64,000 nucleotides of DNA, taken from NCBI RefSeq assembly GCF_007671725.1, contig NZ_VCNM01000001.1, forward strand, positions 1,240,001 through 1,304,000. The letters run 5' to 3'. A program made the position numbers and the translations under genes. This DNA comes from Halorubrum depositum. GTDB taxonomy: Archaea > Halobacteriota > Halobacteria > Halobacteriales > Haloferacaceae. Numbering within the stretch: the stretch's first letter is position 1; each line of letters begins with the position of its first letter. The notes under the pieces are model-generated. The model was not told the origin of the DNA. It made no database searches and was given only the letters and a program-made list of their open reading frames with translations. Positions 1,193 through 10,314 of the stretch are shown here, piece after piece.

Positions 1193-1672
1193 ATGGCGGA
1201 CTGTCCACTCGCCGACGAATGCCCCAGTTTCGACGAGCGAATCGAGGGGATGGGGTGTCAACACTACGGCAACAAGGGCGGCGCGGAGTGGTGTAACCAC
1301 TACGACATGCCCATCTACGAGCTGAAACAGCAGCCGGTCCAGCCCGGCGAACAGGTGATAGTCGAGGTCGACGACATCCACGAGAGCGGCGCGGGCGTCG
1401 GCCGCACCGACGACGGCTTCATCATCCTCGTCGACGGGCTACTCCCGCCGGCGCGCGCGGAGGTGCGGATTCACCGGGTGAAATCGAGCCACGCGACCGC
1501 CGAGGAGGTCGTCGAGCGCCTTCCAGAGGATCCGGACGCTGAAGACGAGGACGGCGACGACGCGGCCGACGCCGACGCGGACGGCGAGAGCGAGGACGAC
1601 GAGAGCGACCGGCGCCGCGACCGCCCGGACCGCGAACGGCTCGGGAGCCGCGAGAACTTCTGGGGCAAATAG
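1193..1672 (+). CDS. TRAM-domain protein; 3' end is the integration site
   Basis: A 159-residue protein. Four cysteines near the N terminus (residues 4, 10, 22, 34) may bind a metal. Residues about 49-108 form a TRAM domain (PGEQVIVEVDDIHESGAGVG, then GFIILVDGLLPPARAEVRI), a small RNA-binding beta-barrel found in tRNA-modification enzymes and as stand-alone proteins in archaea. The C-terminal third is a very acidic tail turning basic at the end. The last codons, TTC TGG GGC AAA TAG, fall in the attachment core of the integrated element; the right-hand copy at 9593-9601 would give Tyr/Phe-Trp-Gly-Lys then TGA, so integration leaves the protein end unchanged. A TTTACAA box lies about 30 nt upstream of the ATG. 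Confidence 0.85.
   Translation: MADCPLADECPSFDERIEGMGCQHYGNKGGAEWCNHYDMPIYELKQQPVQPGEQVIVEVDDIHESGAGVGRTDDGFIILVDGLLPPARAEVRIHRVKSSHATAEEVVERLPEDPDAEDEDGDDAADADADGESEDDESDRRRDRPDRERLGSRENFWGK
1660..1668 (+). other. attL core
   Basis: CTGGGGCAA at the end of the TRAM gene, identical to 9593-9601. It encodes the final Trp-Gly-Lys. The stop codon on this side (TAG) is supplied by the element. Confidence 0.85.
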
Positions 1673-1679
1673 GGCAGTG

Positions 1680-1700
1680 AGTGCGCATTTTGTGCGTACA
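1680..1700 (+). repeat. Left att-flanking arm repeat
   Basis: A 21-bp sequence starting 12 bp inside the left core. It is an imperfect inverted copy (17 of 21 positions match) of 9559-9579, which ends 13 bp before the right core. In the excised circle the two arms would flank the crossover core symmetrically, as expected for recombinase arm-type binding sites. Confidence 0.65.
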
Positions 1701-1738
1701 ACATTTCTGGCGAGTGAACACACTGGTTAGTTGAGCTA

Positions 1739-1748
1739 CATTTTTAAC
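1739..1748 (+). promoter_or_regulatory. TATA-like box of the left small-gene operon
   Basis: CATTTTTAAC is centred about 32 nt before the ATG at 1776, giving a near-leaderless transcript for the chain of small genes that follows. Confidence 0.5.
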
Positions 1749-1775
1749 ATCCCTGCGGTCGTACTGTAACCTGTA

Positions 1776-2045
1776 ATGTCTGATAGCGAGGAGTCTTCAG
1801 CGGGTAGCGACAGCACAACTCAAACCACCACAACAAACACCGTTGGAGGACAGGAACGCCCGAATAAGGTGAAACTGAAAGCCTGCGATTTGGAGGTCGA
1901 AGCCCAGAGTACAGAGATGGAAGCGGACGAGTTAGTCGAAGTGTTGTCGCCCGAAATGGAGTCGATTATGAAGCACCATTTAGCGGGCGAATACGAAGTC
2001 ATCGAACAGCGAGACCTGTTCGCCGCCCTATTCGGAGAGCAATAA
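1776..2045 (+). CDS. Small acidic orphan protein
   Basis: An 89-residue protein and the first gene of the element's left operon. Residues 1-27 are a Ser/Thr-rich, presumably disordered leader (MSDSEESSAGSDSTTQTTTT). The rest (KVKLKACDLEVEAQSTEM and the C-terminal HHLAGEYEVIEQRDLFAALF) looks like a small folded domain with strands followed by helices. No known family is recognised. The stop codon overlaps the next start (TAATG), so it is translationally coupled to the membrane protein downstream. A TATA-like box sits about 32 nt upstream. The coupling and clean coding frame make it likely real; its function is unknown. Confidence 0.6.
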   Translation: MSDSEESSAGSDSTTQTTTTNTVGGQERPNKVKLKACDLEVEAQSTEMEADELVEVLSPEMESIMKHHLAGEYEVIEQRDLFAALFGEQ

Positions 2046-2266
2046 TGGGAGTGCTGGCGTGGGCTGTCGTCATCGGTTGGACTGCTGTATTTGGGTGCGT
2101 GTACTGGTTTCTGGGAAGCAAAGGATGGATGGCATACTATCTGCTGATGGCTTCGCTCACAGGGTATTATAGCGTAGTTGCTGGGTCGTCGGTGGCTACG
2201 GGTATCGTGATGGGTTGGATGCTTCTCCCGTTCGGCGTTGGTGCCGCAGGAGGTGTCTTCGGATAA
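2045..2266 (+). CDS. Small membrane protein
   Basis: A 73-residue, strongly hydrophobic protein with two or three predicted membrane segments: about residues 3-22 (LAWAVVIGWTAVFGCVYWFL), 28-48, and 52-72 ending in a Gly-rich stretch (GVGAAGGVFG). It has almost no charged residues. Its start overlaps the previous stop and its own stop overlaps the next start (both TAATG), placing it in the middle of a tightly coupled operon. Small hydrophobic proteins in such elements can be holin-like, viral membrane or toxin proteins, but nothing in the sequence singles out one of these. Confidence 0.6.
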   Translation: MGVLAWAVVIGWTAVFGCVYWFLGSKGWMAYYLLMASLTGYYSVVAGSSVATGIVMGWMLLPFGVGAAGGVFG

Positions 2267-2625
2267 TGCTTCGGCGGGCATTTCTCGGAGGTGTTGGAGT
2301 TGCGTTTACAGGAGGGTTTGTGAAGTTTCTGAGCGAATGGTACCAACGCCCTGAATCTGAGTATGTGGAGTCGCTGTCGTTGGGAGTTCTCTCCGACACA
2401 ATTCAAATTCGGTTCGTTCACAATGAAGAGAAACGCAGGGAGGTAGTCCAGTATCTCACATACAACGAGCAGAGCGGTGAGATTGACTCTGTTAAGATGA
2501 TGGATGCCCGTTTACCCAGACAGTCGATAGACGCACCAGAGAATCCCGATAAATACCGTTTTGTATTGCTGGGAGAAGAGCAGAATGAATTGGAAAACTT
2601 CGAGTTAGATTTCGGCGTGATTTGA
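2266..2625 (+). CDS. Orphan protein with twin-Arg, signal-like N terminus
   Basis: A 119-residue protein using the ATG at 2266, chosen because it overlaps the preceding stop (TAATG); an earlier in-frame ATG at 2215 would overlap the membrane protein. The N terminus (MLRRAFLGGVGVAFTGGFV) has a twin-arginine pair and a short hydrophobic stretch, so it may be exported or membrane-anchored by the Tat route. The remainder (LGVLSDTIQIRFVHNEEKRR and onward) looks like a beta-rich soluble domain. No family is recognised. It ends with TGATG coupling to the next gene. Confidence 0.55.
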   Translation: MLRRAFLGGVGVAFTGGFVKFLSEWYQRPESEYVESLSLGVLSDTIQIRFVHNEEKRREVVQYLTYNEQSGEIDSVKMMDARLPRQSIDAPENPDKYRFVLLGEEQNELENFELDFGVI

Positions 2626-2885
2626 TGCCAGAGCCTGTAATAAGCGAATATCAACGGTGGCGGTGTGGCGACCAGAGAGTCATCTTAGGCATACGCAACG
2701 GGATAGCGATGTTCTCCCGTTGTTCGTGTAGTAGGGAGAACAGAGCGACAGAGATAGAACTGGACTCTGGAGATGTCTGGTCATATGAGACTTCGTACTG
2801 TGTACACACCTATACCACCCTTGCCCACTACTACGCAGAGTTCGCCAGCGGAGACCTTGCGACAGAGAGAGTGGATACTCGATGA
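2625..2885 (+). CDS. Small orphan protein
   Basis: An 86-residue protein starting at the ATG at 2625, which overlaps the previous stop (TGATG). It contains several cysteines (RCG, SRCSCSREN, YCVH) and no obvious membrane segment. The product may be a small metal-binding or disulfide protein, but no family is recognised. Its stop overlaps an ATG at 2882 that opens a 28-codon frame, continuing the chain of overlapping small genes. It is supported mainly by the operon-like coupling. Confidence 0.45.
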   Translation: MPEPVISEYQRWRCGDQRVILGIRNGIAMFSRCSCSRENRATEIELDSGDVWSYETSYCVHTYTTLAHYYAEFASGDLATERVDTR

Positions 2886-2968
2886 ACAGAAGAAAACTGA
2901 TTGAAACGGCGTCAGGGGTAGGGTTCAGTATGATTTCAGCGGCTCCAGACGAACAGAGAGAGGATTGA
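2882..2968 (+). CDS. 28-residue signal-peptide-like micro-ORF
   Basis: The frame reads MNRRKLIETASGVGFSMISA and then eight more residues before TGA. MNRRK followed by a short hydrophobic run resembles the Tat signals of the two lipoproteins further right (MNRRQYL...), but there is no lipobox cysteine and no mature protein. It starts inside the stop of the previous gene (ATGA). It could be the remnant of a truncated lipoprotein gene or a genuine micropeptide. Confidence 0.3.
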   Translation: MNRRKLIETASGVGFSMISAAPDEQRED

Positions 2969-3067
2969 GACATATCATTGTATTGAGCGTCTATCTTCTG
3001 CTCCCCCGTCAGTTATTGCCCTCTATTGTCGCCTGTGTGCGTGTTCTCAGGTATTCTCTCGGTGGAG

Positions 3068-3077
3068 GTTTTTAACC
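3068..3077 (+). promoter_or_regulatory. TATA-like box of the PIN-like gene
   Basis: GTTTTTAACC is centred about 28 nt before the ATG at 3100, so transcription would begin at or next to the start codon. Confidence 0.55.
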
Positions 3078-3099
3078 GAGGACGACGAAGTAAGAGTCT

Positions 3100-3870
3100 A
3101 TGACCGATTCTCAAAAGGTCAAGCGAGTCATACTGGACACCAACTACTGGATAGATTTCGTTGAAGAATACCCAGAGCGAACACCAAGGTTCCTTGAAGC
3201 GATTGACAATGACGATGTGAAGGTGTACATTACATTCGGGAATTTCATCGACCTGATTCGGTCTAATGAACAAGAAGGGCTTACCAAACTGATTCTCGGT
3301 GCGTCCGACCATTGTATTCCATCAACGATTCTTCGTGAGGAGTGTGTGATTTCAAATAATATTATTGACCTCATCCCTAGCGAGAATCATCGCCGAAATT
3401 TTTCTCAGGTGACCCAAGATATGGACACAGTTGAGACCTTCCAAGAAATTATCAAACACGCAGGTTGGAGTGCCTCAGATTGGTATTATTCAAATATAAA
3501 ACGAGATAGAGAGTTGTTGGAAGAACACGGGTATGATGAACTCAAGAACGGCGGGTATAAGGAATATCTCCAAAATGAACACGGGTCTCAGTATAATTCA
3601 CACGGAGTGGAGACAGTTTCAGATGTGAGGCACGAGGTCTTCCTTCAGCGGTTGAGAGTCATGACTCTGAATGAAAATATACGGGAGCAGGATGTTGCCG
3701 ACTTAGAAACTTGTACTCAAGCAATCGCTTCAGAGTGTAATATGCTGTTGATAGAGAAAAAGTGGGTAAATGTGGATTTGATTCAGAAGACAATACGAAA
3801 CCTTGATTCTGAGAAAGATATGACAGTGTACAAAGACTTCGAGAAGTTCCTCTCTGATTTGAAGCAGTAG
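3100..3870 (+). CDS. PIN-like domain protein (putative ribonuclease)
   Basis: A 256-residue protein. The N terminus (VKRVILDTNYWIDFVEEYP) has the hydrophobic strand followed by Asp13 typical of PIN-domain RNases, and a later segment (DLETCTQAIASECNMLLIEK) matches the second acidic site and following strand. The middle, roughly residues 80-190, is helical and charged. PIN proteins cut RNA in toxin-antitoxin systems and in defence. This one is larger than usual VapC toxins (about 130 residues) and no small antitoxin gene is next to it. It has its own leaderless-type promoter and low GC. It could be a defence cargo gene or a lone effector; the domain call is moderate. Confidence 0.6.
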   Translation: MTDSQKVKRVILDTNYWIDFVEEYPERTPRFLEAIDNDDVKVYITFGNFIDLIRSNEQEGLTKLILGASDHCIPSTILREECVISNNIIDLIPSENHRRNFSQVTQDMDTVETFQEIIKHAGWSASDWYYSNIKRDRELLEEHGYDELKNGGYKEYLQNEHGSQYNSHGVETVSDVRHEVFLQRLRVMTLNENIREQDVADLETCTQAIASECNMLLIEKKWVNVDLIQKTIRNLDSEKDMTVYKDFEKFLSDLKQ

Positions 3871-3873
3871 TTG

Positions 3874-4479
3874 TTACAGGCTCACAACCGTCTCAAATTC
3901 GAAGGTGACCTCACCGTCTGGCTCAGAACCGAACACCCCTGAGTTGTCGAATATGAACCGATGGTCTCCTTCAGGTAGTTGACCAGATATTGTGGTCTCA
4001 GAAACGCCTTCCTCGTAGTATCCGTCGTAAGTTACTGGTTGTTCTTCACCTCGATAGCGGTCAAACTCGTCAGCACTCATCCCGAGAATATCGATCTCTC
4101 CGCCGCCTTGGACTGACACACTAATTTCAAGATTGTATGTTCGCTGGAATTGTGCCTGCCGAACTGCGTATTGTCCTTCTCCGAGGGTTGCCTCACCTGT
4201 TACTGTTGCTGAGGTCTCGTCGTCTGTCTCTTCAAGGTTTGACCACGGGTCAGGGACATACTCGTGGGTTGGCTCAGGTTCGGTCTCCCCATCTGAAGTA
4301 TCGTCGTTCGTGGAACCGCCATTTGTTCCATTTGTGGATTCATCTTCAGAGTCACTATCAGTTCCACCCTCAGGGTCGGTCTCCTCGCCACCGTTCCCTT
4401 CACTCGTGTCTCCCGAACACCCTGCTAATGTGATGACAGAACTGGCTCCAATTGTTGTGAGGTACTGTCTGCGATTCAT
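3874..4479 (-). CDS. Tat lipoprotein
   Basis: A 201-residue secreted lipoprotein. It begins MNRRQYLTTIGASSVITLAG with Cys21 completing the lipobox, a haloarchaeal Tat lipoprotein signal. Residues about 22-80 are a low-complexity linker rich in Glu, Asp, Ser, Gly and Thr. The C-terminal domain, from about residue 90, is beta-rich (YNLEISVSVQGGGEIDILGM, and GDHRFIFDNSG) and resembles jelly-roll domains that bind ligands or membranes, but no family is assigned. It ends 3 nt from the convergent PIN-like gene and lies 9 nt downstream of a second lipoprotein with the same signal sequence, so the two are likely one operon and may be paralogues by signal exchange. Confidence 0.75.
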   Translation of the reverse strand: MNRRQYLTTIGASSVITLAGCSGDTSEGNGGEETDPEGGTDSDSEDESTNGTNGGSTNDDTSDGETEPEPTHEYVPDPWSNLEETDDETSATVTGEATLGEGQYAVRQAQFQRTYNLEISVSVQGGGEIDILGMSADEFDRYRGEEQPVTYDGYYEEGVSETTISGQLPEGDHRFIFDNSGVFGSEPDGEVTFEFETVVSL

Positions 4480-4488
4480 TCTACCACA

Positions 4489-4986
4489 TCAATTGTCAGG
4501 CGGGTAGTTGAACTCATCATACTCATATGTCTCTTCGTATTCAGTTAGTTCTTCGTCTCGTGTTGAAATGGTGATGTCGTAGTTAGTGATTTGGTCGTAG
4601 TGGTCTGGTGTTATATCCACGAGACCCATGTCATCTGTTTCAGTGGTTTCTGCGGGAAGGTCTCCTATTGTCAAACTCCCATCGTCGATTCGCTCATTCT
4701 CGATATACACATTGGCGTTGAATCTGATTAGTTCGAGGGTGATGTCGCTCACATTCTCGACTGTAACCTCTAATACCAACCCACTTCCAACTTGTGCGTG
4801 ACTGAATTCATGACTCTGGAGTTGAACAAAGTCTTCCAATCCGACGCTATCTTCTTCGTTTGAGTCCTCGTCATTTCCTCCGTTTGAATTCTCCTCAGAA
4901 CTCCCGCTGTCATCTGTCTCACCTGTACAGCCTGCCAGTCCAACTGTACTAACACCAATTGCTGTGAGGTACTGTCTTCGATTCAT
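4489..4986 (-). CDS. Tat lipoprotein, FxLYD-like domain
   Basis: A 165-residue protein beginning MNRRQYLTAIGVSTVGLAG with lipobox Cys20, nearly identical in the signal to its downstream neighbour. A short acidic linker follows. From about residue 55 the mature part (SGLVLEVTVENVSDITLELI, then YIENERI and TETDDMGLVDI) resembles the FxLYD-type beta-sandwich common in haloarchaeal surface lipoproteins. It is the first gene of a two-gene operon with a TATA-like box at 5007-5014. It would be anchored on the outside of the cell membrane; the ligand or partner is unknown. Confidence 0.75.
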   Translation of the reverse strand: MNRRQYLTAIGVSTVGLAGCTGETDDSGSSEENSNGGNDEDSNEEDSVGLEDFVQLQSHEFSHAQVGSGLVLEVTVENVSDITLELIRFNANVYIENERIDDGSLTIGDLPAETTETDDMGLVDITPDHYDQITNYDITISTRDEELTEYEETYEYDEFNYPPDN

Positions 4987-5006
4987 ACCAGTTGCTAACC
5001 AGTTGA

Positions 5007-5014
5007 GTATAAAG
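5007..5014 (-). promoter_or_regulatory. TATA-like box of the lipoprotein operon
   Basis: On the minus strand this reads CTTTATAC, about 24 nt before the ATG at 4986. Confidence 0.5.
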
Positions 5015-5039
5015 AAGGTTTGTAATCTGACTTATCAGT

Positions 5040-5321
5040 TCAGAATTTCAATTTAACTTGGCTTTCGTGAAGCCCCAGTGTCTCACCAACTTTAAACTGA
5101 ACAGTATGCCCATTGACTTCCGACTCAATCCATCCTGAACTGACTTCATCCAGTAGGTTGTTTTTGACAGTTGCTTCTGTGTACACTCCATCTGATTCTG
5201 AGATATTGATGTCTTCAACTTCCAACATCTCTTCTCTGTATTTTCCATCTGGGAGACTGTTCCAAATGGCATTGTGGAGCAATCGTTTCACCTCGTCGTC
5301 GGTATGGCTTTGTGGTGCCAT
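5040..5321 (-). CDS. Small orphan protein
   Basis: A 93-residue protein starting MAPQSHTDDEVKRLLHNAIW. It has an N-terminal helix with Asp-Asp-Glu, then alternating strands (DGVYTEATVKNNLLDEVSSG and NGHTVQFKVGETLGL). No cysteines, membrane segment or signal are seen. A TATA-like CCTTTTTATCC lies about 28 nt upstream of the ATG, giving a leaderless transcript of its own. No family is recognised. It lies between the lipoprotein operon and the 206-residue orphan, all read on the minus strand but each apparently with its own promoter. Confidence 0.55.
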   Translation of the reverse strand: MAPQSHTDDEVKRLLHNAIWNSLPDGKYREEMLEVEDINISESDGVYTEATVKNNLLDEVSSGWIESEVNGHTVQFKVGETLGLHESQVKLKF

Positions 5322-5342
5322 ACCCCCGTCTGGATTGTGGTC

Positions 5343-5353
5343 GGATAAAAAGG
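5343..5353 (-). promoter_or_regulatory. TATA-like box
   Basis: The minus strand reads CCTTTTTATCC, centred about 27 nt before the ATG at 5321. Confidence 0.5.
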
Positions 5354-5391
5354 TCAGTCGGGTAATTCACTCAACTGGTTTCACAATGTAC

Positions 5392-6012
5392 TCAATACCA
5401 ATAATTCGACTCTACTATCTTATTAACAGTTGTTGGAGACAGACTGGAACTCTTATACGCTTCATAGATTCCACCATCAGTATAGAGGATATACTGGTAC
5501 CCTCTTGTTTGATACACTTCAAGAACGGAGTCATCATCTGGAGAAGAAAATGTACTATCTGGTGTCTTATGCTCCGCTAATCCTCGAAGAAGGGCACAAT
5601 CAACCTCTTCACAACCTGTTTCAAGATATTCTCTCAGTTCTTCTTGTGCTTTCTTCTCAGCCATCTCCGTAAATACATCATAGAGATGGTCAATCCCCAT
5701 CTTATCTGTAATTTTGGAGTCATTGAGTTGGTTTTTGAGGTTGGCAATAACGCTATCTTCCGCATACACCAGAATGCCATCTAACGAGTTGATTCCATCG
5801 TGGGTGAATTCTATGACCACTTGCGTCGGAATATCTCGTACAGAGACCTCTCCAACCTGTGTGATTCTCTCAGGAATATCCTGTCTATCTACACCATAAA
5901 TTGTAATAATAATTATATTATTCTTGATGCCCTCCTCAGACACTGTAACTGCCATTGGATGCTGTTTAATAATCTTCTCAACCAAATTTTGGATACATGA
6001 TATTTCATTCAT
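5392..6012 (-). CDS. Orphan protein of the element
   Basis: A 206-residue soluble protein. The N-terminal half (IIIITIYGVDRQDIPERITQ and TQVVIEFTHDGI) shows alternating strands and helices. A central helical stretch (FTEMAEKKAQEELREYLE) is followed by a C-terminal segment with aromatic residues (YQTRGYQYILYTDGGIYEAY). Codon use is strongly AT-biased, more so than its neighbours. No family is recognised. The ATG at 6012 is preceded by a good TATA-like box about 30 nt away. It appears to be cargo of the integrated element; function is unknown. Confidence 0.6.
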   Translation of the reverse strand: MNEISCIQNLVEKIIKQHPMAVTVSEEGIKNNIIIITIYGVDRQDIPERITQVGEVSVRDIPTQVVIEFTHDGINSLDGILVYAEDSVIANLKNQLNDSKITDKMGIDHLYDVFTEMAEKKAQEELREYLETGCEEVDCALLRGLAEHKTPDSTFSSPDDDSVLEVYQTRGYQYILYTDGGIYEAYKSSSLSPTTVNKIVESNYWY

Positions 6013-6036
6013 GTCGACCCATTTGTAGGTAAAGAA

Positions 6037-6047
6037 CCATATAAATT
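6037..6047 (-). promoter_or_regulatory. TATA-like box
   Basis: The minus strand reads AATTTATATGG, centred about 30 nt before the ATG at 6012. Confidence 0.5.
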
Positions 6048-6371
6048 TTTCGGATTGGAGTTGGATGATTAGAGAATATACTGGAGATTCTTGAGTCTAT
6101 TCTAATAACAGAGGCTAAGAGACTTAACACACAGAAGTAGTTCTAATTTGTTCGAAATGGTAGCATATAGAGACAAGTCGAGTTGAGTTTGGTCTCTCTA
6201 TCCTCTCAGTCTAAATCCTCTGAATTCCCACCAATATTGGACATATGAAATTGAGTAGAAAATTAGCAGGTGTGATAGTCGGGGTGATTCTAAGACGCAC
6301 CTACAGTCATTGACACACTTCCACATGAAACTGGGTTCTATCCATCTGGCTCGGGACTCCAGTAGAGAGAT

Positions 6372-6392
6372 TCTCTCCCCTGTGGGGAGAGA
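6372..6392. repeat. GC-rich hairpin (9-bp stem, 3-nt loop)
   Basis: TCTCTCCCC, loop TGT, GGGGAGAGA. It stands out in an AT-rich stretch. It could be a transcription terminator, a replication structure or a protein-binding site. Confidence 0.6.
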
Positions 6393-6432
6393 TATCTCGG
6401 AGCCTGTCGGAGACGCCACTATTCACTGGGAT

Positions 6433-6467
6433 TTAGTAGGTGAAAATTAGTAGGTGATTTAGTAGGT
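6433..6467 (+). repeat. Three direct repeats of TTAGTAGGT
   Basis: Copies start at 6433, 6447 and 6459, spaced 14 and 12 bp apart, in an AT-rich stretch just beyond the 3' end of the 317-residue RHH-like protein gene. They look like iterons (tandem protein-binding sites). Confidence 0.6.
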
Positions 6468-6563
6468 TTTACACAGGGTGTCGATTAGAATCTGGAATCT
6501 CATTCATTAAACTCATCTCGTAGCACAGCGAGTCGATTTGACAAAAAGAAAAGCGAATATAGT

Positions 6564-7517
6564 TCAGACTGCGTCGTCTTCAATATCATCGAGGTAATCA
6601 CCTAACTCATCCACAGGCGACACATCCACACCCTGCGGCTCGTATGTGTCATAAACTGTCTCGATTGATTCTCGGATTTTCTCGGTATGGTCTTTGTCGG
6701 GTTTCCGCTTCAACTCGAAGTAATCCATCCATTTTTGAGACCACTCTTCGAGGTCGGCTTCGATGAGTTTCAGAGCCTCCTCGTTGGACGGCTCGTAATA
6801 CCCCCTTGCTCGTCGCTCTATATCGATACCTCTGAGTTGTCCTGTAAACGGGTTAACAGTCGCATTAAGACGCTCTCGAACCTTATCTGCGTAATTGGAC
6901 AGAGTTCGCTCTCCTACATCTGTATACTTGGTTACTTCGTTGTCAACGACAGCATCGATAAGTCCCGTATGATATACATCATCTAATTGGTCTCGTAGCA
7001 GGATTAACGCCAGCGGGACTGCTACCTTATCCGTTGCTGGGATTGTTAAATCATCAGGGATTTTGGCGGCATCAATGTCAGCATTATAGTTGCTGTGTAG
7101 TCGGTCTACCCAATCTGACTGCGTACCTGTGGATTTATCCACATACGCCTCTGCCTGTAATTCGAGAACCATCACATAGTCATAAATGGCTTTACTGAGG
7201 TACTGCCCGATTTTACGCTGTGAGTACACTCTACGAGCCTCTGCTCGGAACCTGTCTGCGAGGTCTTCTGGGCATCTGAAAGAGATTTCACTCGTCTCTC
7301 CACGAGTGTACGAATGAGGGTCGAGACGGTCTTCGGGAACATACTTAGAAGTTAATCTATGTTGGAGTACCTGTTGCGTTGGTGTTGGGTTAACTTTGAA
7401 CCTGATGACATCAATCAGAACAGCCTGCTTATACCCTCTACCGCCGTAATACTGCTCCGAATAGTTTACTAACGCTTCATACGATTCGTTCGAAATGGAA
7501 TATCCTAAGTGTTCCAT
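6564..7517 (-). CDS. RHH-like protein, candidate replication or partition protein
   Basis: A 317-residue protein, the largest orphan of the element. Residues about 75-116 (SEISFRCPEDLADRFRAEAR, then KIGQYLSKAIYDYV) look like a ribbon-helix-helix DNA-binding unit, and residues 5-40 (YSISNESYEALVNYSEQYYG) resemble another. The C-terminal two-thirds are helical and charged with no recognised catalytic motif. The gene lies next to the candidate origin (start at 7517, inverted repeats from 7631) and its 3' end faces the iteron-like repeats. A TATA-like box 28 nt upstream gives a leaderless transcript. By position it could be the replication initiator or a copy-control protein; that is inference. 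Confidence 0.6.
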   Translation of the reverse strand: MEHLGYSISNESYEALVNYSEQYYGGRGYKQAVLIDVIRFKVNPTPTQQVLQHRLTSKYVPEDRLDPHSYTRGETSEISFRCPEDLADRFRAEARRVYSQRKIGQYLSKAIYDYVMVLELQAEAYVDKSTGTQSDWVDRLHSNYNADIDAAKIPDDLTIPATDKVAVPLALILLRDQLDDVYHTGLIDAVVDNEVTKYTDVGERTLSNYADKVRERLNATVNPFTGQLRGIDIERRARGYYEPSNEEALKLIEADLEEWSQKWMDYFELKRKPDKDHTEKIRESIETVYDTYEPQGVDVSPVDELGDYLDDIEDDAV

Positions 7518-7538
7518 ATGTCAGTAAACGGATACCAA

Positions 7539-7548
7539 CCTTATAAGT
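7539..7548 (-). promoter_or_regulatory. TATA-like box of the 317-residue gene
   Basis: The minus strand reads ACTTATAAGG, centred about 27 nt before the ATG at 7517. Confidence 0.55.
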
Positions 7549-7630
7549 TTTACTGCGATATGTAAGCGAAGAAAAAGAGAAAATACCCGTCAAACCATAT
7601 ATACGGAGTATATAGCACCACGCCCACCTA

Positions 7631-7745
7631 AAGCGGAGATATTTTTCGAGTTATTATTCTGAGATGCCTCATTTCTGAGAGTAAGCGAGCAGGGACGGAG
7701 AAACACCACTCTCATTTTCAGATGTTCCGATTTCAGGAGTTTCAG
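7631..7745 (+). repeat. Left arm of a long inverted repeat
   Basis: The outer 30 nt (7631-7660) are a perfect reverse complement of 8012-8041. Further matches stay in register towards the centre: 7671-7681 with 7991-8001, 7727-7733 with 7939-7945, and 7739-7745 with 7927-7933. Confidence 0.85.
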
Positions 7746-7926
7746 GCGTTTGTCTCGCCGCTCTCACTGGAGTTAAGAGAGATTGCGGAGGGTCTCCCGA
7801 ACCTTCCACTCACATAATGAAGTCAAAAGGAACTATACTATACTACTATACTATAATATGTAAGTTGTTTGTTGTTGTTGTTGTTGTTTGTTGTTTATTT
7901 TTCTTAGTGAGTTACTCGCCGAAACT

Positions 7927-8041
7927 CTGAAACCTCTAAAATCGGTGCCTCTCAGAAAATCACCCCCTATTCATCGTCTTCGCTCTAAGGCTCTCAGAAA
8001 TAACCCCGTGAAGAATAATAACTCGAAAAATATCTCCGCTT
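7927..8041 (-). repeat. Right arm of a long inverted repeat
   Basis: Mirror of 7631-7745. Its perfect outer 30 nt (8012-8041) overlap the start of the zinc-finger micro-ORF. Confidence 0.85.
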
Positions 8042-8157
8042 CCGTTCAACCACTGAACAAATTTAGATGGCTCTGGGTGTGTGAGTGTACCCGAGTTAAC
8101 CGTCAGAAAGACCCATACTGTACAAAATGCGGGACTGAACAGCCTACAACTTCCTGA
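8008..8157 (+). CDS. RanBP2-like zinc finger micro-protein
   Basis: A 49-residue frame from GTG at 8008 (an upstream TTG at 7888 is possible but would cross the origin core). The C-terminal half, WVCECTRVNRQKDPYCTKCG, matches W-x-C-x-C-x3-N-x6-C-x2-C, very close to the RanBP2-type zinc finger, which usually binds RNA or ubiquitin. Its N-terminal codons lie in the right arm of the inverted repeat, and its end overlaps the convergent recombinase gene by 14 nt. The well-kept finger argues that it is translated. It might regulate the origin or the recombinase; that is speculation. Confidence 0.5.
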   Translation: MKNNNSKNISASVQPLNKFRWLWVCECTRVNRQKDPYCTKCGTEQPTTS

Positions 8158-9130
8158 GTACTTCAGAGTTCGGGTCGAAGGTCTTCGGTCTCGCCTGTTC
8201 GTTCTGAATCTTTCTCGTTTCTTCTTTCAACCCGACATAGTGAGATGTAACTTCGACTGAGTGATGTCCCATAAGTTTTCTCAGTATTTCCAGATTCATA
8301 CCTGCGGCGGCTCGATGGGTCGCATATGCGTGTCGGAAGTGATGAGCGGTAGGGTAATGTAAATCTCTTCCAGCGGCGTCCTCTCCGTACACCTCGCCGA
8401 CTCCTGAACGGTCTGATACACGGCGTACTATCGTATTGATATAGTTCGGCTGTACCTGTTCAGAGTTCTGTGTAACCACCAAATACGGGCTATTTTGAGC
8501 CGTCTTATACGCATCTCGTCCTCCGTAGTCCAGCCACTCCCTCAACACAGGTTTAATTTCGGACGAGTATGGAATTTTGCGAACTCCATCCGACTTTTTG
8601 TTTCGTACTTTAATTAGGTCTTTATCCCTGTCTATCCGTTGAAGAGTGAGTTCAGAGAGTTCGGCTGTACGAACTCCAGTCTCCCAGAGCATCCGTATGA
8701 TTAGTTCTTCTCTGGTGGTCTCACAGGCTTCCACGATAACGACATACTCAGGAACCTCTACCCATTGTGTTTCTTCTCCTTTGTATTTCTCTGATAAACT
8801 CTCGGTGTTGTATTTGTGGTCTCGCAGTACCTCTGCTAAGTCTTCCTTGTCTGATTCGTTGAAGAAGTGGGCGAGGTTATCCGAGTGTTGTTTTATCGTG
8901 GTATCGTTGAGGTTACGCTCTTCCCGTAGGTATTCAACTAAATCGTACATATCCACGCTTTCGAGGTCTCTCCAGCCGTCTGCGTGGTCGTACCATTCTG
9001 TGAATTCGCCGAGAATATGGAACGCCTGTCGGTAGTTGGCTTCGGTGTTAGCGTTTCCTTCGTTTTTACTTTTAACTTCCTTTACGAATTCTCGGAGGTC
9101 AGGGTCTCGAAGCCGCTTTTTCTCACTCAT
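8144..9130 (-). CDS. Tyrosine recombinase (integrase)
   Basis: A 328-residue integrase. The N-terminal core-binding domain (about residues 10-110) contains the SAM-like helical unit. The catalytic domain shows Arg154 (TGVRTAEL), a probable Lys178/179 in the beta-hairpin (RNKKSDG), His263-x-x-Arg266 (AHHFRHAYATH), His289 (LMGHHSVEV) and the nucleophile Tyr298 (TSHYVG). All catalytic positions are present, so it is probably active. It would integrate and excise the element at the TRAM gene end. It is the second gene of an operon with the RHH regulator, overlapping it by 8 nt, and lies at the element edge as is typical. Confidence 0.93.
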   Translation of the reverse strand: MSEKKRLRDPDLREFVKEVKSKNEGNANTEANYRQAFHILGEFTEWYDHADGWRDLESVDMYDLVEYLREERNLNDTTIKQHSDNLAHFFNESDKEDLAEVLRDHKYNTESLSEKYKGEETQWVEVPEYVVIVEACETTREELIIRMLWETGVRTAELSELTLQRIDRDKDLIKVRNKKSDGVRKIPYSSEIKPVLREWLDYGGRDAYKTAQNSPYLVVTQNSEQVQPNYINTIVRRVSDRSGVGEVYGEDAAGRDLHYPTAHHFRHAYATHRAAAGMNLEILRKLMGHHSVEVTSHYVGLKEETRKIQNEQARPKTFDPNSEVLRKL

Positions 9131-9524
9131 TTAGTTCCTCTTTTATTTCTACCGTCTGTCGTCGGTTCGCTTCAGCGATAGCCTCAAAAGACAACTCTCG
9201 CATTTCTCCTGCTGGAACCTGCTCTTCCTCAACTCGCTCTCCTATCTCTTTGACATCCTCTATAATATTCATTACTTTTCCGAACTCACTCCGCATCGTG
9301 CTGATTATCTCCTTCTGCTCTTTGGTCAGTTCGCCGTCGTCTTTCTCGTTCTCTCTGGCGATAAACTCAGTCACCGAACGACGCACGAGTTCCGCTTTTG
9401 TGTTGACTTTTGGGTTCTCTTCGACAAATGATTCCCAGTTCTCGTTTGTTCCGAGGTCGAGGCGAATGGTGAACCGTAGTTCATTGTTCTCGTCTTCTCC
9501 TTCATCGTCTCCGTCGTCTGGCAT
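9123..9524 (-). CDS. Ribbon-helix-helix regulator, recombinase operon
   Basis: A 133-residue acidic protein. Residues 14-57 (NELRFTIRLDLGTNENWESF, then KAELVRRSVTEFIARE) form a ribbon-helix-helix DNA-binding domain; the C-terminal half is charged and helical, probably coiled coil, for oligomerisation. It precedes and overlaps the recombinase gene by 8 nt. Its leaderless promoter (9545-9556) lies within a few bases of the att arm repeat at 9559-9579, so a protein bound there could both repress the operon and influence recombination. It may act as a repressor or as an excision factor. Confidence 0.75.
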   Translation of the reverse strand: MPDDGDDEGEDENNELRFTIRLDLGTNENWESFVEENPKVNTKAELVRRSVTEFIARENEKDDGELTKEQKEIISTMRSEFGKVMNIIEDVKEIGERVEEEQVPAGEMRELSFEAIAEANRRQTVEIKEELNE

Positions 9525-9544
9525 ATGGTACTGTATTGTGGTAC

Positions 9545-9556
9545 TATTCTAATAAG
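9545..9556 (-). promoter_or_regulatory. TATA-like box of the RHH-recombinase operon
   Basis: The minus strand reads CTTATTAGAATA, centred about 27 nt before the ATG at 9524 and touching the right att arm. Confidence 0.5.
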
Positions 9557-9558
9557 TC

Positions 9559-9579
9559 TGTGCGTACAAAGTTCGCACT
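9559..9579 (-). repeat. Right att-flanking arm repeat
   Basis: Inverted partner of 1680-1700 (17 of 21 positions match), ending 13 bp before the right core. Confidence 0.65.
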
Positions 9580-9592
9580 GAGTAGCGTATTA

Positions 9593-9601
9593 CTGGGGCA
9601 A
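9593..9601 (+). other. attR core
   Basis: CTGGGGCAA followed by GTGAGCGCG. In frame this is TGG GGC AAG TGA, the original Trp-Gly-Lys-stop of the TRAM gene before integration. Confidence 0.85.
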
Positions 9602-9672
9602 GTGAGCGCGTCCCGGGGTGGCCCCACCCCACGGACAGTCCGGACGCCGCCGATCGGTCTCCCCCGACCGAA

Positions 9673-9719
9673 CCCCTCAGTTCGAGGGGGGTCGAAACCG
9701 CCGTTTTTTGAGCGAGCGT
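9673..9719 (+). terminator. Possible terminator displaced from the TRAM gene
   Basis: A short stem (CCCCTC with GAGGGG, 9673-9689) followed by six T residues at 9714-9719. Before integration this would have lain about 70 nt after the TRAM stop codon. Confidence 0.35.
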
Positions 9720-9734
9720 CCCCTCGCGACGAGT

Positions 9735-10238
9735 ATGGTCGCAGACGACGGTCCGGCCGACGCCGACGCGGTCGACGACGCCGAGGACGTCGACGCCGCC
9801 GAGCTGCTGGAACGGTCCGGGTTCGACGCCGACGAGAGCGTCCTCACCGACCGGCAGGCGGAGGTGCTCGCGCTCCGCGAGCGGGGGCTCCGCCAGTCCG
9901 ACATCGCCGACCGGCTCGGCACGTCGCGCGCGAACGTCTCCAGCGTCGAGGCCAGCGCCCGCGACAACGTCGAGCGGGCCCGCGAGACGGTCGCGTTCGC
10001 GGAGGCGCTCGCGGCGCCGGTCCGCGTGAAGATCGAGCCCGGCACGGACCTGTACGACGCCCCGAAGCGCGTGTACGACGCCTGCGACGACGCGGGCGTG
10101 AAGGTGAACCAGACCGCGCCGGATCTGATGAAGACGATCGGCGACCGCGCCGGCGACGCGGTCCACGGCCGCGAGGTGCGCAGCCGGCTGTTCGTCACCG
10201 TCGACGCGAACGGACAGATCCGGGTGCGACACCCGTGA
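9735..10238 (+). CDS. Tfx-family DNA-binding protein
   Basis: A 167-residue protein from the ATG at 9735 (an upstream frame to 9618 is poorly haloarchaeal in sequence). Residues about 38-75 (LTDRQAEVLALRERGLRQSD, then DRLGTSRANVSSVE) form the helix-turn-helix of Tfx proteins. The C-terminal domain (VRVKIEPGTDLYDAPKRVYD, then APDLMKTIGDRAGD) is the Tfx-specific part. Methanogen Tfx activates the fmdECB formylmethanofuran dehydrogenase operon under molybdate; in haloarchaea the target is not known. Two molybdopterin-type oxidoreductases lie further downstream, but a regulatory link is only a guess. Confidence 0.8.
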   Translation: MVADDGPADADAVDDAEDVDAAELLERSGFDADESVLTDRQAEVLALRERGLRQSDIADRLGTSRANVSSVEASARDNVERARETVAFAEALAAPVRVKIEPGTDLYDAPKRVYDACDDAGVKVNQTAPDLMKTIGDRAGDAVHGREVRSRLFVTVDANGQIRVRHP

Positions 10239-10314
10239 GCGCCGGCGGGCGCCGCAGTCTCCGAATTCCGACTCTCGCTCCGCCGGCCGCTCCGCGGCCC
10301 CCGGATCCCGCCGC

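Follow-up and report, generated by a model that had tools for sequence, protein, structure and literature searches.

For the SNJ2 provirus, an essential origin hairpin has been described 176-197 nt past the stop codon of the rep gene, with a binding repeat before the hairpin (PMC13107129). The same work, from 2026, presents Rep-Arvir, a protein without a recognisable Rep domain, as a new initiator family with endonuclease activity (PMC13107129). The SNJ2 att core is given as 13 bp (PMC8371274). According to what is described for plasmid pRN1 of Sulfolobus, a stem-loop downstream of the rep gene is required, orf56 codes for a transcriptional repressor of the rep operon and orf904 for the Rep (PMC4234260). 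An AT-rich region between inverted boxes is stated to be common in archaeal origins (PMC7776575), and a division into sites for binding and sites for nicking has been described for rolling-circle origins (PMC5714925). The protein treated here, P0001, is a compact candidate for another such initiator family.

The window, a stretch of 64,000 nt from Halorubrum depositum, carries at 1660-9592 an integrative element which has a tyrosine integrase and att direct repeats, and whose site is uninterrupted in relatives. The element is 7,933 bp long with 45.7% GC and lies within DNA of ~70% GC; the drop from about 70% to 40-50% GC is found between 1.7 and 9.5 kb. The TRAM-like host gene at 1193-1672 codes for a product ending in ENFWGK, and its end is overlapped by the attL copy. 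On the other side, alignments to many relatives start at window position 9593, and 27 of the 29 genomes searched match some of 9580-10280. Among 13 loci of relatives the uninterrupted host gene end (…AACTTCTGGGGCAAGT…) was found in five, the exact 9-mer CTGGGGCAA lies only elsewhere in two and is missing in six. The 9-mer at both ends together with the uninterrupted sites of relatives implies that 1660-9592 entered the last codons of the host gene. These codons are restored by the element with a changed stop codon, TAG here against TGA/TAG in relatives. The arms around the att core resemble inverted repeats by eye. The coordinates of the features are collected in Table 1.

Table 1. Features of the integrated element, in window coordinates.
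Feature	Position	Strand	Basis or remark
attL core CTGGGGCAA	1660-1668	plus	end of host gene 1193-1672 (…FWGK stop)
Hairpin, 9-bp core stem TCTCTCCCC/GGGGAGAGA, 3-nt loop	6367-6398		166-197 nt past P0001 stop, beside direct repeats
Three iteron-like direct repeats TTAGTAGGT (starts 6433, 6447, 6459)	6433-6467	plus	shuffles
P0001, 317 aa, orphan, candidate replication initiator or origin-binding protein	6564-7517	minus	open frame, coding statistics, no relatives
Possible winged-helix-like region of P0001, residues 148-275	6693-7076	minus	low-confidence model (pLDDT 41.5), phrog_19949, HxlR-like L101 alignment
Possible ribbon-helix-helix (RHH) of P0001, residues 66-130: strand ISFRCP, helices EDLADRFRAEARR, IGQYLSKAIYDYV	7128-7322	minus	by eye; PHROG E = 0.083; low-confidence helices
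P0001 upstream sequence, TATA-like CTTATAAGG ~27 nt 5' of ATG, leaderless type	7518-7580	minus	read from sequence
Long inverted repeat, outer arms 30 bp identical (7631-7660 / 8012-8041)	7631-8041		shuffles, ssDNA folding, copy search
AT-rich core within inverted repeat, possible unwinding element, ACTATACTATACTACTATACTATA and GTT repeats	7800-7910		AT content, tandem repeats
Tyrosine integrase, 328 aa	8144-9130	minus	Pfam PF00589 (Phage_integrase), E = 7.8e-27
RHH-like protein, 133 aa, overlaps integrase start	9123-9524	minus	similar frames directly upstream of sister integrases
attR core CTGGGGCAA	9593-9601	plus	homology to relatives begins here

The element resembles the SNJ2-type integrase modules in having a small accessory gene beside the integrase and a short att core, 9 bp here. 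It differs from them in the target: the SNJ2-type modules use a tRNA gene, the present element the 3' end of a gene for a protein. No archaeal pleolipovirus integrase is found among the matches listed, which are 20 of the 43 phage records matching the integrase. Sister integrase loci were collected from 17 of 56 other genomes (integrase matches at E <= 1e-25) and number 18. In 16 of them the integrase is immediately preceded by a frame like the 133-aa protein (E < 0.001), and in the other two the frame there gives E 0.16 and 0.37. Judged from these comparisons, the 133-aa frame and the integrase form a conserved pair, and the small protein is likely to be an integrase partner or regulator.

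A first reading made from the sequence only placed a protein of 317 residues at 6564-7517; an uninterrupted frame of 317 codons has exactly these coordinates and runs on the minus strand. When the element was shuffled 300 times, with single-base composition alone preserved, the longest stop-free run was 248 codons and the median 131. The codon score against the other genes of the element is +0.24 for the P0001 frame and -0.36 to -0.70 for the remaining five frames, and GC by codon position is alike in P0001 (0.59, 0.35, 0.47) and the integrase (0.57, 0.34, 0.50). Because the length is beyond that found in shuffles, the codon score is the sole positive one and the codon-position GC is like that of the integrase, P0001 is a real gene and codes for a protein, second only to the integrase in length among the element proteins. 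By comparison with haloarchaeal promoters in general, CTTATAAGG is a putative TATA-like promoter element of the gene.

Within the collections searched (plasmids, phages, IMG/VR and haloarchaeal genomes) P0001 is the orphan it was said to be. No relative was obtained by tblastn, at E 1e-5 or E 10, in 72,556 plasmid and 50,697 phage records, the phages giving two chance-level matches (E 4 and 9) at E 10. Scans with a peptide pattern, which detect close relatives only, gave four stretches in IMG/VR and 19 in genome_contigs (84,980 species genomes), none of which encodes a relative. A search of 391 genomes of the same class returned the self-match alone at E <= 0.001. The search of its own family (170 genomes, E <= 10) and those of three other families (146, 125 and 26 genomes), all sets which overlap with the class set, gave only weak matches, the best at 7.2e-4, and none was upheld on inspection. 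Rejected in this way were L086, which overlaps a PurE-like frame, L100 and L088, where the aligned frame looks like a member of the nucleotidyltransferase family, and L102 and L103, which show no resemblance. The HxlR-like protein of L101 was rejected as not significant (E 0.003 per genome, the top of 146), and the CopG-like protein of L082 was dropped (E 0.004 on the per-genome scale, E 0.002 in another comparison). General search terms in the open-licence literature found no description of the element or of P0001.

It had also been stated that no known haloarchaeal Rep is seen in the element. A Pfam scan of the ORFs and a motif scan of 12 proteins are both negative and agree with this. The Pfam scan found no Rep domain among the ORFs scanned; among the 12 proteins neither the His-hydrophobic-His motif of HUH proteins nor Walker A, G....GK[ST], was present (0 of 12 for each), so that the signature of Orc1/Cdc6 and other P-loop initiators is lacking. 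There is no Orc gene in the element, and the lack of a RepH-type protein was judged solely by the absent Pfam match. P0001 itself has no Pfam match to Rep_trans PF02486, and without this domain its YxxK strings at residues 106, 125 and 209 carry little weight. Nor does it match DUF7845 of the betapleolipovirus Rep in Pfam, a domain which the positive control, HGPV-1 ORF14, matches at 1e-115, and it contains no KHYY as in the KHYYM-like catalytic Tyr motif. Pairwise BLASTP with Rep-Arvir gave E = 0.033 over 37 aa. By any of these comparisons P0001 is not a Rep-Arvir. The present case is like the Rep-Arvir / RepSNJ2 betapleolipovirus elements in that a small haloarchaeal integrative element lacks a recognisable Rep and codes for its own initiator, a putative one here; it is unlike them in the size of the protein (317 aa vs 544 aa in HGPV-1) as well as in the missing DUF7845 and KHYY. 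The further claim that P0001 would be the only large DNA-binding candidate is right when the integrase at 8144-9130 is set aside.

The label RHH-like was not confirmed by the searches. Pfam, NCBIfam and PDB sequences gave no RHH match with the whole protein or a fragment of it (no significant profile in Pfam or NCBIfam for the whole or for residues 66-130), and the label comes from inspection only. PHROG 6506 (Arc-like) aligns from residue 73 on, with E = 0.18 for the whole protein and 0.083 for the fragment, which is not significant, and a profile made from the RHH family that the element itself carries aligned elsewhere on P0001 and did not pick out the putative RHH region. The look of an RHH is given by residues 72-125, GETSEISFRCPEDLADRFRAEARR…IGQYLSKAIYDYV, and the CopG-like match of L082 covers the putative strand and the first helix. 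A full-length AlphaFold model made from the single sequence has a pLDDT of 39.8, with low-confidence helices at 84-96 and 100-124; a second such model (pLDDT 41.5) is unusable like the first. In this second, poor model residues 166-271 follow the order helix-helix-long helix-hairpin-helix, and the alignment with the HxlR-like protein of L101, not significant, is compatible with a winged helix. A winged helix in residues 148-275 is thus suggested at most. Compared with initiators that bind iterons through a winged helix, P0001 has a suggestive helix-hairpin order (pLDDT 41.5) and repeats beside its gene. The profile phrog_19949 (function unknown) gave E 0.0043 with the whole protein and 9.5e-4 with a fragment; it was dropped as a lead, with matches in 0 of the 391 genomes and in none of the controls.

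P0001 has non-coding DNA on its two sides, 626 bp at 7518-8143 up to the integrase and about 550 bp at 6013-6563, which is large for a compact element. The position of the gene between two repeat regions, direct repeats on one side and an inverted repeat on the other, was correctly described before. The inverted repeat, with 30 of 30 positions identical in its arms, is the longest exact one of the element; 200 dinucleotide shuffles gave a mean of 13.4 and a maximum of 20. The arms extend inward with imperfect complementarity, and CTCTCAGAAA occurs at 7672(-), 7949(+) and 7991(+). Folded as ssDNA, 7600-8070 reaches -74 kcal/mol (z -7.4), and none of 100 shuffles was as good. AT content peaks inside the inverted repeat, at 77% over the 60 bp that start at 7840, the highest value for any such stretch of the element; tandem repeats are found at 7832-7895 in this core. 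An 18-mer of the repeat arm matched 12 stretches in IMG/VR and 43 in genome_contigs, one match each and none titled haloarchaeon, which is taken as chance. A frame on the plus strand, 7888-8157, runs over the right arm, and its last part, with CxC...CxxC, resembles a zinc ribbon without reaching significance (Pfam Zn_Ribbon_1 E 0.036).

Downstream of the gene, TTAGTAGGT is the sole triple 9-bp repeat of the element, and none of 300 shuffles held such a triple; a degenerate fourth repeat, TTAGCAGGT, is found at 6263. The nearby hairpin ranks first of 2,631 windows of 40 nt when RNA parameters are used (-22.7 vs -16.4 for the next). For the triple and the hairpin windows it should be noted that the shuffles preserve only single-base composition. 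With DNA parameters the hairpin has a z of -3.4, with 0 of 200 shuffles as good; the region 6013-6563 as a whole folds no better than shuffles (z -1.1). The hairpin pattern was found in 12 IMG/VR contigs, none of which has the iteron or encodes anything related to the 12 element proteins (E < 0.05).

A gene with repeats and a hairpin on one side and a palindrome around AT-rich DNA on the other is arranged like a replication module. The arrangement is close to that of SNJ2: a hairpin is found here 166-197 nt past the stop codon, almost the distance of the essential hairpin there (176-197 nt), and repeats precede it. The hairpin sequences of the element and of the betapleolipovirus origin are unrelated, and a similarity to that origin was rejected, the longest word in common with the HGPV-1 region downstream of rep being a chance-like 10 nt. 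The likeness to pRN1 is a stem-loop downstream of a gene, which in pRN1 is the origin; the difference is that repressor and Rep are separate there, and P0001 resembled neither in any search. The haloarchaeal Orc1/Cdc6 origins likewise have an AT-rich stretch between inverted repeats, and the element differs from them in having neither an Orc gene nor a Walker A motif. GC skew does not mark the repeats; its extremes, at 9512 and 3880, track gene direction. This counts against placing an origin at 7.6-8.0 kb, or at any rate lends it no support.

Our tentative explanation, to which we give somewhat less than an even chance, is that P0001 is the origin-binding replication initiator of a 7.9-kb integrative haloarchaeal plasmid. 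The integrase would excise the element to give a 7.9-kb circle, and P0001 would bind the repeats in the non-coding DNA that flanks its gene on both sides and bring in the replication machinery of the host, so that the circle could replicate autonomously. The upstream inverted repeat with its AT-rich centre might be the opening site, or the single-strand origin if replication is by rolling circle, and the downstream triple repeat with the hairpin might serve for binding and control, or as double-strand origin. The layout would fit both modes. In a rolling-circle version the repeats would be the binding site, the hairpin the nick site and the long palindrome the single-strand origin; in a theta version the DNA would open at the palindrome, with inverted binding sites on either side as Orc origins have them, and the repeats would be the control site. 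Since no catalytic signature is visible in P0001, we lean towards an origin binder without endonuclease activity; an endonuclease that escapes recognition, as happened with Rep-Arvir, is a less likely alternative. The candidate module would span about 6.0-8.15 kb of the window and comprise P0001 with a short non-coding stretch on each side. In its fullest form the proposal is that P0001 represents a new initiator family, unrelated in sequence to HUH, Rep_trans, Rep-Arvir, RepH and Orc1/Cdc6 and possibly made of an RHH and a winged helix, with a two-sided origin of iterons and hairpin downstream and the inverted repeat around its AT-rich core upstream; in all these particulars it is unlikely, at odds of perhaps one in four or five.

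The earlier suggestion of a replication or copy-control protein is a reasonable one, unproven, and its support is positional. The missing known Rep and the orphan status stand, and the position has been strengthened by the hairpin and the AT-rich core; the RHH part found no significant support. For an initiator speaks that four extremes of the element flank P0001, namely the longest exact inverted repeat, the AT-richest 60 bp, the only triple 9-mer and the strongest local hairpin, features which were spotted after looking, so that their joint occurrence does not amount to a formal test, and that no recognised Rep is found elsewhere in the element. Against it count that P0001 has neither a significant DNA-binding domain nor a catalytic motif, and that no homologue exists in the collections searched with which a co-conservation of gene and repeats could be demonstrated. 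The two flanks have no 10-mer in common, which also argues against an initiator, since shared words might be expected if one protein bound both. Finally, an own Rep may be dispensable in elements of this kind, because at least one sister locus, L064, shows no large Rep candidate and none of the 18 sister loci has a long inverted repeat, exact and of at least 20, in the 6 kb that follow the integrase; four of the 18 have perfect palindromes there, but short ones of 16-18 nt.

That P0001 is a DNA-binding regulator, for copy control, partition or a lysogeny-type switch, with the element replicated by host initiators that act on its origin or by another unrecognised protein, is in our opinion rather doubtful, yet it deserves attention. 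The weak traces of an RHH and of a winged helix are more usual in regulators, and Orf56 of pRN1 is an RHH protein. It represses the rep operon according to the pRN1 account (PMC4234260), and an AT-rich core between inverted repeats is like what is described for host-type archaeal origins (PMC7776575). On the other hand, 317 aa is large for a repressor, a second Rep candidate was not seen in the element, and a regulator is likewise left without a significant domain match. If P0001 were instead unrelated cargo (defence, anti-defence, toxin or accessory) in an incidental position, and the island spread by excision and integration only, one would understand the sister L064 region, and orphan genes are common in such islands; the neighbours here include two lipoproteins and, by inspection, a PIN-like protein. 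We consider this quite unlikely, as the four cis features flank exactly P0001. Should the module not replicate autonomously, the element would illustrate an integrative island that has no Rep of its own. It is very unlikely that the repeats serve other functions altogether, the inverted repeat being what is left of a MITE, or a structure in the transcript past the integrase, and the 6367-6398 hairpin being a terminator. Like terminators, the hairpin has a high GC content and a short loop, and it is located past the end of P0001, but no T-run follows it on the P0001 strand. The MITE was rejected on the lack of a second copy in 167 family genomes, its own genome included; by eye there is no target-site duplication, and the inverted repeat region has no match in Rfam.

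Other genes of the element have relatives at the sister loci. L065 shares most of the cargo, with relatives of the 206-aa protein (E 3e-34) and of a lipoprotein (9e-7); it has no P0001 and no recognised Rep. The 206-aa protein (window 5392-6012), which belongs to no family, has its relative at L065 16593-17261, in another genus and adjoining the lipoprotein gene, and by this comparison the two appear to be a shared cargo unit. The adjacent lipoprotein-like genes of the element, 3874-4479 and 4489-4986, begin with a 44-nt stretch that is 84% alike and are a probable duplication. The first plus-strand gene, 1776-2045 (89 aa), has a relative in the same genus at L080 3286-3561 (E 1e-11), ~6 kb from the integrase. 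At L066 9187-10225 the integrase is read as two overlapping frames, as if frameshifted. The sister element at L063 14672-19443 codes for membrane- or surface-like proteins and a Zot-like ATPase (Pfam Zot E 0.0034, below the cut-off), and looks like a filamentous- or pleomorphic-virus-like element.
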